NCBI RefSeq assembly: GCF_001424545.1
Contig: NZ_LMQL01000008.1
Span: 1 to 64,000, forward strand
Source: Ramlibacter sp. Leaf400
GTDB taxonomy: Bacteria > Pseudomonadota > Gammaproteobacteria > Burkholderiales > Burkholderiaceae_C
Reading direction: 5' to 3'
Length of the DNA stretch: 64,000 nt
Made by a program: the position numbers and the translations under genes. Below the pieces are notes generated by a model. It saw only the letters and a program-made list of their open reading frames with translations, did no database searches and was not told where the DNA came from. Shown in pieces: positions 3,223-7,762 of this stretch; position 1 is the first letter of the stretch; each line of letters starts with the position of its first letter.

Positions 3223-3873
3223 TCAGCGGGAAGGATTGTCGGACAGCGCCAGGCGCGCGCCGAAAGCGATGAACATGGCGCCGGCGGCGCGGTCCAGCCA
3301 GTGCATGCCACGCTGCACGGCATCGCGGCGCGCCATCCAGGCCGCGGCCAGCGCCCAGCCGGAATTCACCGGAATGCTGTTGACGTTGAACAGCACGCCC
3401 AGCAGCACGAAGGCCAGCGCCTTGTTCGGCGCGTCCGGCGCGATGAACTGCGGCACGAAGGCCAGGAAGAAGATGGCGACCTTGGGATTGAGCACGTTGG
3501 TCCAGAAGCCGCCCAGGAAGACCGCGCGCAACCGGGCCGGCGGCTGCGACTGCGCCAGCGAGCGCAGGTCGGCCACGTCGGCCTGCGGGCGCGCCACCAG
3601 GAGCTTGACGCCCACCCACAGCAGGTAGGCCGCGCCCAGCCACTTCAGCACCGTGAACGCCGTGGCCGATGTGGCCAGCAGCGCGCCCACGCCCACCGCC
3701 GCGGCGAACACGTGCACGAAGCAGCCGGCCGTGATGCCCAGCCCCGCGACGATGCCGGCGCGGGCGCCCGAGCGCAGCGCGTTGGTGACGATGTAGAGCA
3801 CGTCCGGCCCCGGCGTCAGGTTCAGCAGCCAGCCGGCGGCGATGAAGATCACGAGCTGCTGCAGGTCCGGCAT
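3223..3873 (-). CDS. LysE/RhtB-family amino-acid exporter
   Basis: An inner-membrane exporter of 216 residues with about six hydrophobic segments. The N-terminal NLTPGPDVLYIVTNAL segment is the signature of the LysE/RhtB/ArgO family, which exports lysine, threonine, homoserine or related compounds; the exact substrate cannot be read from sequence. It lies 5 bases after threonine aldolase and 15 bases before trpD. Next to a threonine-cleaving enzyme, export of threonine, homoserine or glycine-like metabolites is a reasonable guess but unproven. Confidence 0.88.
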   Translation of the reverse strand: MPDLQQLVIFIAAGWLLNLTPGPDVLYIVTNALRSGARAGIVAGLGITAGCFVHVFAAAVGVGALLATSATAFTVLKWLGAAYLLWVGVKLLVARPQADVADLRSLAQSQPPARLRAVFLGGFWTNVLNPKVAIFFLAFVPQFIAPDAPNKALAFVLLGVLFNVNSIPVNSGWALAAAWMARRDAVQRGMHWLDRAAGAMFIAFGARLALSDNPSR

Positions 3874-3878
3874 GGCGC

Positions 3879-4928
3879 TCAGTTCCGGAAGAAGCGGCGG
3901 AAGGCGGCGACGGCGCGGTCGACGCCGGCCTCGTCCACGTCCAGGTGGGTGGCGAATCGCAGGCGGTACAGGCCGGTGGCCAGCACGCCTTCGGCCTTCA
4001 GGGCTTCGAGCAGCGCCGGCCCGCGATCACGCGCCGCGCCGGTGAGGTCGACGAACACGATGTTGGTCTGCGGCGGCTCCACCTGCACGCCTTCGAGGCC
4101 GGCCAGCCCCTGCGCCAACCGCGCGGCCAACTCATGGTCGACGGCGAGGCGCTCGACGTGGTGGTCCAGCGCGTACGAGGCCGCGGCCGCCAGCACGCCG
4201 GCCTGCCGCATCGCGCCGCCCGCCATCTTGCGGATGCGGCGGGCGCGGGCGATCAGCTCCTTCGAGCCGCAAAGCGCGGAGCCGGCGGGCGTGCCCAGGC
4301 CCTTGCTGAAGCAGACCGAGACGGAATCGAAGTGGCCGGCGATGCGGCGGGCGGCCTCCTGCGCAGTCGTTCCTTCGCGCTGCGCCACCGCCACGGCCGC
4401 ATTGAACAGCCGGGCGCCATCGAGGTGGGTGGACAGACCGTGCCGGCGGGCCAACGCGGTGGCTTCGCCCAGGTACGCCATCGGGATCACCTTGCCGCCC
4501 AGCGTGTTCTCCAGCGCGAGCAGGCGGGTGCGCGCGAAGTGCGGGTCGTCGGGCTTGATCGCGGCCTCGATGGCTTCGAGCGCCAGCGTGCCGTCGGGCT
4601 GGTGTTCCAGCGGCTGCGGCTGCACGCTGCCGAACACGGCGGCGCCGCCGCCTTCCCAGCGGTAGCAGTGCTGGAACTGGCCGACGATGTACTCGTCGCC
4701 GCGCTGGCAGTGCGAGAGCACGGCGCACAGGTTGCTCTGCGTGCCCGTGGGCATGAAGAGGGCCGCCTCGAAGCCCAGCATCGCGGCGATCTGGTCCTGA
4801 AGCGCATTGACGCTGGGGTCGTCGCCGAACACGTCGTCGCCCAGCGGCGCGGCCATCATGGCCTCGCGCATCGCCGCGGTCGGCCGAGTCACGGTGTCGC
4901 TGCGCAAGTCAACAAGGCCGGCGCTCAC
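3879..4928 (-). CDS. ltaE: Low-specificity L-threonine aldolase
   Basis: A fold-type I PLP enzyme that cleaves L-threonine or allo-threonine to glycine and acetaldehyde. The N-terminus [13 protein letters not shown], the [11 protein letters not shown] segment and the PLP lysine in [12 protein letters not shown] (about Lys209) are typical. With the GTG start at 4928 the protein has 349 residues, as expected. That GTG overlaps the trpG stop (GTGA), so ltaE is translationally coupled inside the trp operon, an unusual position for it. GTG was preferred because it fits the coupling and the family N-terminus. Confidence 0.92.
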
Positions 4929-5494
4929 ACCTGCTCCAGGAAGTTCTTCAGCATCGCGTGCCCATGCTCGGTGAGGATGGATTCCGGATGGAACTGCACG
5001 CCCTGGATGGCCAGCTCGCGGTGGCGCACGCCCATGATCTCGCCGTCGTCGGTCCACGCGGTGGTCTCCAGCTCGCGCGGGCACGTGCTCTTCTCGATGG
5101 CAAGGGAGTGGTAGCGGTTCACCGTGAAGCGCTCCGGCAGGCCGGCGAACACGCCCTGGCGGGTGGTGGTGATCTCGCTGGTCTTGCCGTGCATCAGCTG
5201 CGCGGCGCGGATGATGTTGCCGCCGAACGCGGCGCCTATGCTCTGGTGCCCCAGGCACACGCCCAGGATCGGCAGCTTGCCCGCGAAGTGCCGGATGGCC
5301 GCCACCGAGATGCCCGCCTCCGCCGGCGAGCAGGGGCCGGGCGAGACCACCAGGCGGTCGGGCGCGCGCGCGGCGATGCCCTCGATCGTGATCTCGTCGT
5401 TGCGGAACACCTCCACCTGCGCGCCCAGCTCGCCGAAGTACTGCACCAGGTTGTAGGTGAAGCTGTCGTAGTTGTCGATCATGAGCAGCTTCAT
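4925..5494 (-). CDS. trpG: Anthranilate synthase component II (glutamine amidotransferase)
   Basis: Supplies ammonia from glutamine to TrpE for anthranilate formation. The 189-residue class I amidotransferase has the nucleophile Cys80 in [15 protein letters not shown] for the oxyanion region and the catalytic His in VQFHPESI. The start [12 protein letters not shown] is the universal TrpG N-terminus and is preceded by AGGAGGG. An in-frame extension to 5530 runs into the left inverted repeat of the GxxExxY cassette and is not believed. Normally trpG would directly follow trpE; here the cassette separates them. Confidence 0.96.
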
Positions 5495-5511
5495 TCCAGA
5501 CCCTCCTGAAC
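5483..5511. repeat. Left copy of the duplicated trpE/trpG junction
   Basis: These 29 bases cover the trpG ribosome-binding site and first codons. They match 5994-6022, on the far side of the GxxExxY cassette and in the same orientation, at 23 of 29 positions; the shared core TTCATTCCA contains the ATG of trpG. The arrangement looks like a long, diverged target-site duplication. Confidence 0.7.
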
Positions 5512-5513
5512 AA

Positions 5514-5543
5514 ACAGAACACAGAGGCACAGAGGCACAGAGG
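5514..5543 (+). repeat. Left 30-bp terminal inverted repeat of the GxxExxY cassette
   Basis: ACAGAAC is followed by repeats of the 8-mer ACAGAGGC (two full, one truncated). The exact reverse complement of all 30 bases stands at 5961-5990, both pointing inward. It begins 2 bases after the duplicated junction and ends 24 bases from the stop of the GxxExxY gene. Confidence 0.9.
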
Positions 5544-5567
5544 AATGCATCGAGGGAGGGGTGGGAG

Positions 5568-5933
5568 TCACAGGGAGATCCTCCGGATGCCCTGTTTGGC
5601 TGCTTCGACGTTGAAGTTGATCAGCAGCGCTGTCTTCAGACCCGACATGCGCAGGTAGGTCAGCGTCTGCGCCTTGTGCAGGGGCAGCAAGGCTTCCACC
5701 GCTTTCAGTTCCAGCAGCAGCCGGGTGTCCACCACCATGTCCAGTCGGTAGCAATGCGGCAGTCGCTCGCCCTTGTACATGACGGGCAGATCGATCTGCC
5801 TTTGAAACGGCAAGCCCTGCAAACCGAGCTCGCGCGCCAGGGCATGTTCGTACGCACTTTCCAGCAGCCCCGGCCCCAGTGCCCGATGCACCTCGATCAC
5901 ACAACCAATGACCTTTCGCGAAAGGGCAAACAT
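5568..5933 (-). CDS. GxxExxY-family protein (PD-(D/E)XK nuclease-like), cargo of the cassette
   Basis: A 121-residue protein with the naming motif GLLESAY (within [20 protein letters not shown]), then [13 protein letters not shown] and LELKAVE, which resemble the D...ExK core of the PD-(D/E)XK nuclease superfamily, and the conserved tail [17 protein letters not shown]. The biological role of the family is not established. The start at 5933 gives the usual family N-terminus. The frame is also open up to an ATG at 6005 that overlaps the trpE stop as ATGA: that 145-residue version would begin [18 protein letters not shown], reusing the duplicated trpG start and translating through the inverted repeat. 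Confidence 0.85.
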
Positions 5934-5960
5934 CCCCCCATCACCCTGATCCTCCTCTTC

Positions 5961-5990
5961 CCTCTGTGCCTCTGTGCCTCTGTGTTCTGT
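5961..5990 (-). repeat. Right 30-bp terminal inverted repeat of the GxxExxY cassette
   Basis: Perfect reverse complement of 5514-5543, consisting of the 8-mer GCCTCTGT read on the plus strand and its end TTCTGT. It lies 3 bases from the second copy of the duplicated junction. Confidence 0.9.
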
Positions 5991-5993
5991 CCC

Positions 5994-6022
5994 GAGGAGT
6001 TTCATTCCAACCCCTCCTCGAC
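5994..6022. repeat. Right copy of the duplicated trpE/trpG junction
   Basis: Covers the last codons and stop of trpE. On the minus strand it reads GAGGAGGGG...GGAATGAAACTCCTC, in which the trpE stop overlaps an ATG as ATGA, probably the original trpG start before insertion. It matches 5483-5511 at 23 of 29 positions. Confidence 0.7.
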
Positions 6023-7501
6023 CAGCTCCGAAGCGCGCAGCAACGCCCGCGCCTTGGCCTCGGTTTCCTTCCATTCCAGCTCCGGCACCGAATCGGCGAC
6101 GACGCCGGCGGCGGCCTGAACGTACAGGGTCTGGTCCTTCACGATGCCGGTGCGGATCGCGATCGCCACGTCCATGTCGCCTGCGTAGCTGAGGTAGCCG
6201 CAGGCGCCGCCGTAGAGGCCGCGCTTGGTCGGCTCGAGACGGTCGATCAGCTCCATCGCATGCACCTTGGGCGCGCCGGTCAGCGTGCCCGCCGGGAAGG
6301 TCGCCTTCAGCACGTCGATGCCGGTCATGCCTTCGTTGAGGATGCCTTCGACGTTGCTCACGATGTGCATCACGTGGCTGTAGCGCTCGACCGCGAAGGC
6401 CTCGGTCACCTTCACGCTGCCGGTCCTGGCGATGCGGCCGATGTCGTTGCGCGCCAGGTCGATCAGCATCACGTGCTCGGCGCGTTCCTTGGGGTCGGTC
6501 ACCAGCTCCTGCTCGACGGCCTTGTCCTGCTCCGGCGTGGCGCCGCGCGGACGGGTGCCGGCCAGCGGCCGGATGGTCACCTTCTGGCCCTCGGGCGTCT
6601 GCTCCTGGCGCACCAGGATCTCCGGCGAGGCGCCCACCACCTGGAACTCGCCGAAGTCGTAGTAGTACATGTACGGGCTGGGGTTCAGCGAACGCAGCGC
6701 GCGGTACAGCGACAAGGGCGACTCGGTGTAGCGCTTCTTGATGCGCTGGCCGATCTGCACCTGCATGAAGTCGCCGGCGGCGATCAGTTCCTTGGCGCGG
6801 TCCACCGCCTTCAGGTAGTCGGCCTTGGAGAACTCGCGCTCGGCCGGGAAGGTCTGGGTCTGGCGCACCTGGGGGGCGCTGACCGAGTACTTGAGCTGTT
6901 CCTTCAGCTCGCGCAGCCGCTTCTTGGCGTTGCTGTACGCCTCGGGCCGGCCGGGGTCGGCGTACACGATCAGGTAGAGCTTGCCCGACAGGTTGTCGAT
7001 GACGGCCAGCTCCTCGCACTGAAGCAGCAGGATGTCCGGGCAGCCCAGCGTGTCGGGCGGACAGGTCTTCTCCAGCTTCTTCTCGATGTAGCGCACCGCG
7101 TCGTAGCCGAAGTAGCCGGCCAGGCCGCCGCAAAAGCGCGGCAGGCCCGGGCGCAGCGCCACCTTGAAGCGCTTCTGGTACTCGCCCACGAAGTCCAGCG
7201 GATTGCCGCGGACGCGTTCGACCACCTGCCCTTCGGTGACCACCTCGGTGACCGCGTCGGCGCCGAAGCCGGTGGCGCGCAGGAGCGTGCGGGCGGGCAG
7301 GCCGATGAAGCTGTAGCGCCCGAAGCGCTCGCCGCCGACGACGGATTCGAGCAGGAAGCTGTGGCGGCTCTGGCCCTTGGCATGCGCCAGCTTCAGGTAC
7401 AGGGAGAGGGGGGTCTCGAGGTCGGCGAAGGCTTCCGCAATGAGGGGGATGCGGTTGAAGCCCTGGAGTGCCAGGCTCTTGAATTCGAGTTCGGTGATCA
7501 C
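6002..7501 (-). CDS. trpE: Anthranilate synthase component I
   Basis: Converts chorismate to anthranilate with ammonia from TrpG; first committed step of tryptophan synthesis, normally feedback-inhibited by tryptophan through an N-terminal LLES-type motif, seen here as SFLLESVVGG. C-terminal chorismate-binding segments are present, including PLAGTRPRG, DLARNDIGR and FPAGTLTGAPK. I chose the GTG at 7501 (499 residues) because GGAGG lies 8 bases upstream and ITELEFKSLALQG follows directly; an ATG at 7546 would add 15 residues. It is the first gene of the operon. I see no leader peptide with tandem Trp codons. Confidence 0.95.
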   Translation of the reverse strand: MITELEFKSLALQGFNRIPLIAEAFADLETPLSLYLKLAHAKGQSRHSFLLESVVGGERFGRYSFIGLPARTLLRATGFGADAVTEVVTEGQVVERVRGNPLDFVGEYQKRFKVALRPGLPRFCGGLAGYFGYDAVRYIEKKLEKTCPPDTLGCPDILLLQCEELAVIDNLSGKLYLIVYADPGRPEAYSNAKKRLRELKEQLKYSVSAPQVRQTQTFPAEREFSKADYLKAVDRAKELIAAGDFMQVQIGQRIKKRYTESPLSLYRALRSLNPSPYMYYYDFGEFQVVGASPEILVRQEQTPEGQKVTIRPLAGTRPRGATPEQDKAVEQELVTDPKERAEHVMLIDLARNDIGRIARTGSVKVTEAFAVERYSHVMHIVSNVEGILNEGMTGIDVLKATFPAGTLTGAPKVHAMELIDRLEPTKRGLYGGACGYLSYAGDMDVAIAIRTGIVKDQTLYVQAAAGVVADSVPELEWKETEAKARALLRASELVEEGLE

Positions 7502-7762
7502 GGGGTGAGCCTCCACAAGCTCATGCGGCGCGGGCCGCTGGTCCATTCTGGGGATGTCCCGGGGCCGGGACGCGGGGCACGGGCTGCCCCGTGCAGATCA
7601 GGAACGCACGTTGACAGGCTTGCGCCAGGGCCAGGCTCCCCGGCCGGAGCAACCTGTGATGGTGGTGCGGTGGATGAACATCGCGGACGAGTGTAGCAAA
7701 GGGCTCGCCGAAAACCCTGATGGCTTGCGCCGGGACCGCCGATTAACATCTCGCAACAAAAC

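Follow-up and report, generated by a model that had tools for sequence, protein, structure and literature searches.

A GxxExxY nuclease gene between inverted iteron arms in Ramlibacter: a candidate engine of an overlooked kind of mobile DNA

In the RAYT/REPIN system, as the relevant passages of PMC3116915 present it, a small gene whose product is related to IS200-like transposases is flanked by inverted repeats, gene-less elements made of two inverted copies lie scattered outside genes and form hairpins, elements cluster beside the gene, and the repeats differ between lineages. The same traits recur around a GxxExxY gene, single-copy in Ramlibacter sp. Leaf400, that we describe here together with its 477 bp cassette; clustering beside the gene was seen in another genome (G199). 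Two things differ: the associated gene encodes a transposase there and a PD-(D/E)XK nuclease (PDDEXK_3/GxxExxY) here, and one imperfect repetitive extragenic palindrome (REP) there stands against tandem short repeats (iterons) here. The cassette lies in a 64,000-nucleotide stretch of the Leaf400 genome (contig NZ_LMQL01000008.1, positions 1 to 64,000; hereafter the window), between two genes that, from their sequence, we take to be trpE and trpG. We consider it likely that GxxExxY genes are the protein-coding members of widespread mobile, or formerly mobile, units, in a partnership of the RAYT/REPIN kind whose driver is an unrelated nuclease of the PD-(D/E)XK type, and this nuclease probably powers a kind of mobile DNA that has been overlooked.

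RAYT/REPIN is the closest known system in its working, and Rpn is the closest in enzyme class; the GxxExxY protein belongs to neither. Rpn/YhgA-like proteins (transposase_31, PF04754) are PD-(D/E)XK nucleases that, in the passages of PMC5350276 consulted, are proposed to act in RecA-independent gene acquisition. The same passages infer that rpnC entered one operon junction, panC-panD, on two separate occasions, which resembles the reuse of trpE-trpG by the GxxExxY cassette, and they describe in vitro cleavage by RpnA with little if any sequence specificity. Rpn proteins differ in forming another Pfam family and in carrying a variable C-terminal tail, and those passages report neither flanking inverted iterons nor gene-less derivatives. 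Miniature inverted-repeat transposable elements (MITEs) of classical DDE insertion sequences likewise have terminal inverted repeats and short copies that share the subterminal sequence of one end, but the GxxExxY unit encloses no transposase of this class and lacks a target duplication of constant length.

A description of a GxxExxY-repeat system was not found in the literature searched; subscription papers and most preprints lay outside it, so priority elsewhere is possible. Titles and abstract openings returned by thematic searches linked the GxxExxY protein to no repeats, and a single paper among those searched names PF13366, PDDEXK_3 or TIGR04256. GxxExxY itself is named in two of 5.39 million papers, with passages that are a note beside a reverse transcriptase (PMC8934634) and a virus gene list (PMC12085832). 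Iteron strings gave no literature match, and shorter strings gave unrelated-looking papers among the matches listed.

A GxxExxY cassette between trpE and trpG

The cassette and its surroundings in the window are laid out as follows.

5514..5990 (-), operon direction: GxxExxY cassette of 477 bp that separates trpE from trpG
5514..5543 (+): arm of the inverted repeat next to trpG, facing inward, with 3 x CACAGAGG iterons after ACAGAA
5961..5990 (-): arm of the inverted repeat next to trpE, perfectly reverse-complementary to 5514..5543, with GAAGAGGAGGA on its inner side
5568..5933 (-): GxxExxY gene, 121 aa, predicted PD-(D/E)XK nuclease fold; RxD...ExK = R63, D65, E75, K77
5994..6018: trpE/trpG junction duplicate, copy 1, end of trpE and relic of the trpG start
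5483..5507: trpE/trpG junction duplicate, copy 2, relic of the trpE end, ribosome-binding site and trpG start
6002..7546 (-): trpE, complete reading frame; matches trpE of relatives
4925..5494 (-): trpG, complete reading frame; matches trpG of relatives

The two arms are perfect 30-nt reverse complements built of tandem 8-nt iterons, and the GxxExxY gene lies alone between them, with no second gene. This agrees with the original prediction, made from the letters alone, of a 477 bp cassette with perfect 30 bp inverted repeats and one GxxExxY gene. That prediction had also seen a duplicated trpE/trpG junction that preserved both genes, and we observed the same: the direct repeats at 5483-5507 and 5994-6018 are identical at 21 of 25 positions, trpE keeps its stop, trpG keeps GGAGGG and an ATG, and in some congeners the two genes overlap as ATGA. 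The first codons of trpG persist after the trpE stop in the trpE-side copy, and the last codons of trpE persist in the trpG-side copy. Each copy holds a remnant of the other gene, so the junction has been duplicated and the match is no coincidence. An RNA element at the locus is rejected, positions 4500-7600 having no Rfam match at gathering scores.

By profile and by structure model, the window protein is a member of the PD-(D/E)XK nuclease superfamily with its putative catalytic residues in place. It scored 142.2 bits against TIGR04256, the GxxExxY family (cut-off 35; positions 2-115 of 116), and 140 bits against PF13366 (PDDEXK_3; cut-off 22), its sole Pfam match at E 0.001; PF04754 (Rpn/transposase_31) was not matched at that threshold. 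The R, D, E and K of RxD...ExK are invariant across 79 aligned rows, an alignment that leaves out L068 and L136 (L### denotes loci and G### sampled genomes), which have an in-frame stop; the tree kept both, with X. In these two copies, which come from metagenome-assembled genomes (MAGs) of different phyla, the stops coincide in position and immediately precede the catalytic RxD. The structure model reached a predicted local distance difference test score (pLDDT) of 96.9, a single-sequence AlphaFold model (pLDDT 37) being discarded. VIA-align matches included many restriction-endonuclease-like structures, and the fold resembles those of archaeal Hjc nucleases and of SSO0001 (Cas4), at 15-16% identity and with Foldseek E above 0.001; a shared fold of this kind shows no function. 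A phmmer search of PDB sequences gave no match at E 1.

Arms and gene-less elements across genomes

The best 80 of 536 GxxExxY relatives found, from many phyla, were taken, a set that is therefore biased to intact copies. Alignment scores of upstream flanks with reverse-complemented downstream flanks exceeded the 99th percentile reached by 3,330 control windows at 60 of the 80 loci, and the control maximum at 42. Direct flank similarity passed at 18, often where further arms lie nearby. The flank motif is often TTCACC-like and followed by two to four RCRRAG-like units spaced 8-9 nt apart. Two-iteron arms pointed inward on both sides at 61 loci and outward on both sides at three. Arms within one cassette matched each other better than the arms of other cassettes (0 of 10,000 permutations were as high), and the own-cassette match was the best in all nine cassettes compared, which came from four genomes and were chosen because both arms had been seen. 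Further iterons beside GxxExxY genes were CGCAGATT, CACGAATG and an AATCCTGT type; in the survey of these, the gene motif was not located by script in 8 of 36 loci. Overall, arms and gene behave as one unit at many loci in many phyla.

Only one GxxExxY gene was found in the 4.6-Mb Leaf400 genome (G000), whereas other genomes have up to eight matches each. A 16-mer of the arm, allowing up to two mismatches, matched 106 times in G000 and not once when the pattern was read backwards; the matches occupy at least 23 places, namely the cassette and at least 22 gene-less elements. We fetched and read 21 of the latter (C13:239853 was left out). They span 74-122 bp between outer iterons, and are usually bordered by ACAGAA or ACTCAA. 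On their left stand two to eight CACRGAGG-type units and on their right the same in reverse; the core between measures 30-57 nt, or 83 nt in an element whose right arm is interrupted. Their arms are closely similar to those of the window cassette, and all six elements that were folded formed long hairpins. The GAAGAGGAGGA that lies just inside the trpE-side arm of the cassette is found again in these elements: it is common to their cores and to the inside of the arm at the 5' end of the gene (z 13), with z 1 at the other end, as expected of derivatives of that one end. By eye, several of the short elements (L045, L054, L055, L056 and L059) lie inside another palindromic repeat, of the GTCATTCCCGCG...GGGAATCCAGG type, and appear nested in it or carried together with it.

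The genus sample comprised 59 genomes including G000, and the 58 others had 0-3 arm matches each, like the reversed control. When the flanks of four short elements were searched for in six relatives, contiguous orthologous junctions turned up for three of the elements. None of the ten such junctions fetched held a short element, which provides empty sites for these three. Because congeners show no excess and the orthologous junctions are empty, the short elements most likely multiplied in the G000 lineage while the gene stayed single. The small non-autonomous mobile unit of the original prediction needs recasting: arms and gene do behave as a unit and gene-less relatives did spread in G000, but the window copy is the gene-bearing member, and the non-autonomous members are the short elements elsewhere in the genome.

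We then followed arms and gene across larger samples, calling a genome arm-rich if it had three or more matches to the arm pattern ACCRCRRAGRCRCRRAG. Among 184 genomes of the class there were 649 arm matches versus 5 for the reversed pattern, and GxxExxY was present in 10 of 12 arm-rich genomes versus 17 of 172 others (Fisher p 5e-8). The 151 genomes sampled from the phylum to which G284, a Thermoflexia MAG, belongs gave 446 versus 24; the reversed pattern never exceeded two per genome, so that arm counts of one or two are near background in this phylum. Here GxxExxY was present in 15 of 21 arm-rich genomes versus 18 of 130 others (Fisher p 1e-7). The genomes of 40 of the 80 named loci gave 1,083 arm matches versus 5 reversed, with three or more in 26. 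A chance origin of the arms and gene arrangement is rejected by the exact arms, by these counts against reversed controls and by the flank alignments.

Short elements of the same build were present in the stretches read of G199, G144 and G153, and in G199 15 of the 26 arms that do not flank the gene sit within ~24 kb of it. Arms and GxxExxY genes cluster locally in G155 and G199, suggesting short-range spread around the gene.

The trpE-trpG junction in the genus and beyond

In the genus sample, 57 trpE-trpG junctions were measured (L180 and L185 had no trpE in the stretch). The two genes overlap by 4 nt (ATGA, gap -4) at eight junctions, a ninth reading -5 or -4, and the gap is below 100 nt at 29 of the 57. 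An iteron cassette occupies 17 junctions, G000 included (507-546 nt), a GxxExxY gene without iteron arms occupies five (385-415 nt), and six hold other inserts. Four of the six inserts (L154, L162, L179 and L184, in G019, G033, G078 and G003) are, by eye, a different small chorismate-mutase-like gene that replaces GxxExxY; the junction thus accepts several kinds of insert. The GxxExxY gene itself is patchy in the genus (14 of 36 other congeners). Cassettes at trpE-trpG were also found at L063, L083 and L132, named betaproteobacterial loci, and the original idea of entry into start-stop junctions holds to the extent that trpE-trpG is reused within the genus and at these three loci. At L070 (Undibacterium amnicola, around 3380-3620), trpE and a cassette are followed by the first codons of trpG (MLLMID) and then by unrelated sequence, with the break directly beside the cassette; we did not count this as a full trpE-trpG case because only those first codons follow.

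In a species tree from trp sequences, G000 groups with G013 and G024 (99/89). These nearest sampled relatives carry a genus-type GxxExxY cassette at trpE-trpG, with other repeats and a divergent protein, and occupancy of the junction is therefore probably older than the species. A quick protein tree with few columns, lacking rows for G069, G009 and G082 (the repeat-less G009 and G082 copies were read separately), placed 19 congeneric copies in a starred clade without the window copy. This suggests an independent arrival of the window copy. Shared descent is compatible with approximately unbiased (AU) tests, which reject neither the window copy with the genus (p 0.48) nor the window copy with G013 and G024 (p 0.176, lnL 53 lower). 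Repeated use of the site, or cassette exchange there, is likely.

Active-site residues are intact in 15 of the 16 iteron-flanked trp copies with a protein row versus one of the five iteron-less copies. Three of these five share one starred clade, so the losses represent few events, and the link between absent arms and loss of predicted catalytic residues is suggestive. Four iteron-less copies at trpE-trpG (L013, L014, L015 and L169) carry Q in place of the E of the ExK motif, and the catalytic D too is gone from two of them; judged from these substitutions, their proteins are possibly co-opted and non-cutting.

A proposed route of spread and its alternatives

In the model we favour, each unit consists of a single-domain PD-(D/E)XK nuclease gene with an inverted arm on either side, an arm being two to four tandem iterons that are mostly 8-9 nt long; two facing arms without the gene make a short hairpin element of ~60-150 bp. 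The nuclease would recognise the iteron arms of its own lineage, whether as iterons in duplex form or extruded into a hairpin or cruciform, and would cut at or near them. The unit would then be copied into intergenic sites by host repair or replication, with no target duplication of set length, and the nuclease would drive the spread of the short elements in trans. Such copying would fit both the general absence of target duplications of constant length and the single irregular one of 25 bp.

Several observations weigh against this model. Both movement and catalysis are inferred: neither transposition nor excision nor nuclease activity was observed. A Foldseek search of the structure model against PDB gave no match at E 0.001 (best 2.3e-3). 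Facing iterons of the short elements read 38 A/A, 5 A/G, 11 G/A, 2 G/G and 1 A/T, without clear covariation of the A/G variants, so the paired strand as the recognised form lacks support. General target duplication, which the original prediction had put up for checking at other loci, is rejected: the mean longest string shared by the flanks was 5.5 versus 5.13 +/- 0.13 at 62 named cassettes, with four strings of at least 8, and 4.52 versus 4.53 at the 21 short elements of G000, which is no excess beyond a few outliers and makes the 25 bp duplication at trpE-trpG exceptional. Of the 40 named-locus genomes, eight had no arm match, and 11 of the 27 GxxExxY genomes in the class sample lacked the ACCRCRRAGRCRCRRAG pattern, some of them carrying other iterons and others none that we found. 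Conversely, GxxExxY was absent from eight arm-rich genomes (G153 and G196 of the class sample; G350, G353, G392, G413, G424 and G432 of the phylum sample), which may have lost the gene or may host another enzyme that acts on the arms. G413 has 110 arms and no GxxExxY match, and its arms are mostly single and unpaired in the stretches read; no gene replacing GxxExxY between arms was seen in 16 of its stretches of 20 kb. In these stretches (L241-L256) the arms mostly share one strand, and at one place copies follow each other in tandem ~193 bp apart.

The eight arm-rich genomes without GxxExxY are also what one would expect if arms and short elements were MITEs or REPINs of the usual kind, mobilised in trans by some other transposase, for example a Y1 (HUH) enzyme of the RAYT type, with GxxExxY as a passenger or an arm-binding regulator. 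Y1_Tnp (PF01797) is indeed common, occurring in 127 of the 184 class genomes, G000 among them, and in 11 of the 12 arm-rich ones. However, Y1_Tnp and arm richness are only weakly associated (p 0.068), G144, which holds 49 arms, is missing from the set that matched Y1_Tnp, and it is the GxxExxY genes themselves that sit between arms matching within each cassette. We regard another transposase as an unlikely source of the elements.

Alternatively, GxxExxY might be a resident host nuclease, such as a repair enzyme or a structure-specific one, that regulates itself or acts on hairpins, the elements being inherited regulatory or repair sites. Such a role would suit the resemblance to Hjc and SSO0001, positions often common to relatives (trpE-trpG in many species), and, in searches with one query protein, the rarity of GxxExxY on plasmids (8 of 72,556 records) and its absence from phages (0 of 50,697). 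Pattern counts nevertheless show no short elements of the G000 kind in 58 congeners, nor do the orthologous junctions that were read hold any, and the gene is patchy among congeners, so that inherited host sites seem improbable to us. Very improbable is an addiction or defence cassette with a toxin-like nuclease under selection and with arms serving as terminators or operators: Rpn nucleases, also PD-(D/E)XK, are reported as toxic anti-phage proteins in the part of PMC10327210 consulted, but the window protein matched none of the PADLOC-DB families at E 0.1, the window arms enclose a lone gene, and gene-less copies are hard to explain as defence units.

A broader form of the model, in which the GxxExxY nuclease drives the spread, can be offered tentatively. 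GxxExxY proteins could be the mobilising nucleases of a separate and very widespread class of mobile DNA, with an iteron code of its own in each lineage (CACAGAG, CGCAAAG, CACGAAG, CGCAGATT and others), whose cassettes and miniature hairpins would spread by cutting and host repair. If so, some of the palindromic repeats that lack an explanation in the genomes of Chloroflexota, Planctomycetota, Verrucomicrobiota and Pseudomonadota would be GxxExxY products, and the RAYT/REPIN way of life would have arisen also with an unrelated enzyme, a single-domain PD-(D/E)XK nuclease. A protein family named in NCBIfam by its motif alone gains a testable role, a candidate source emerges for a large class of palindromic repeats, and the lineage-specific iterons offer a ready code for work on protein-DNA recognition.
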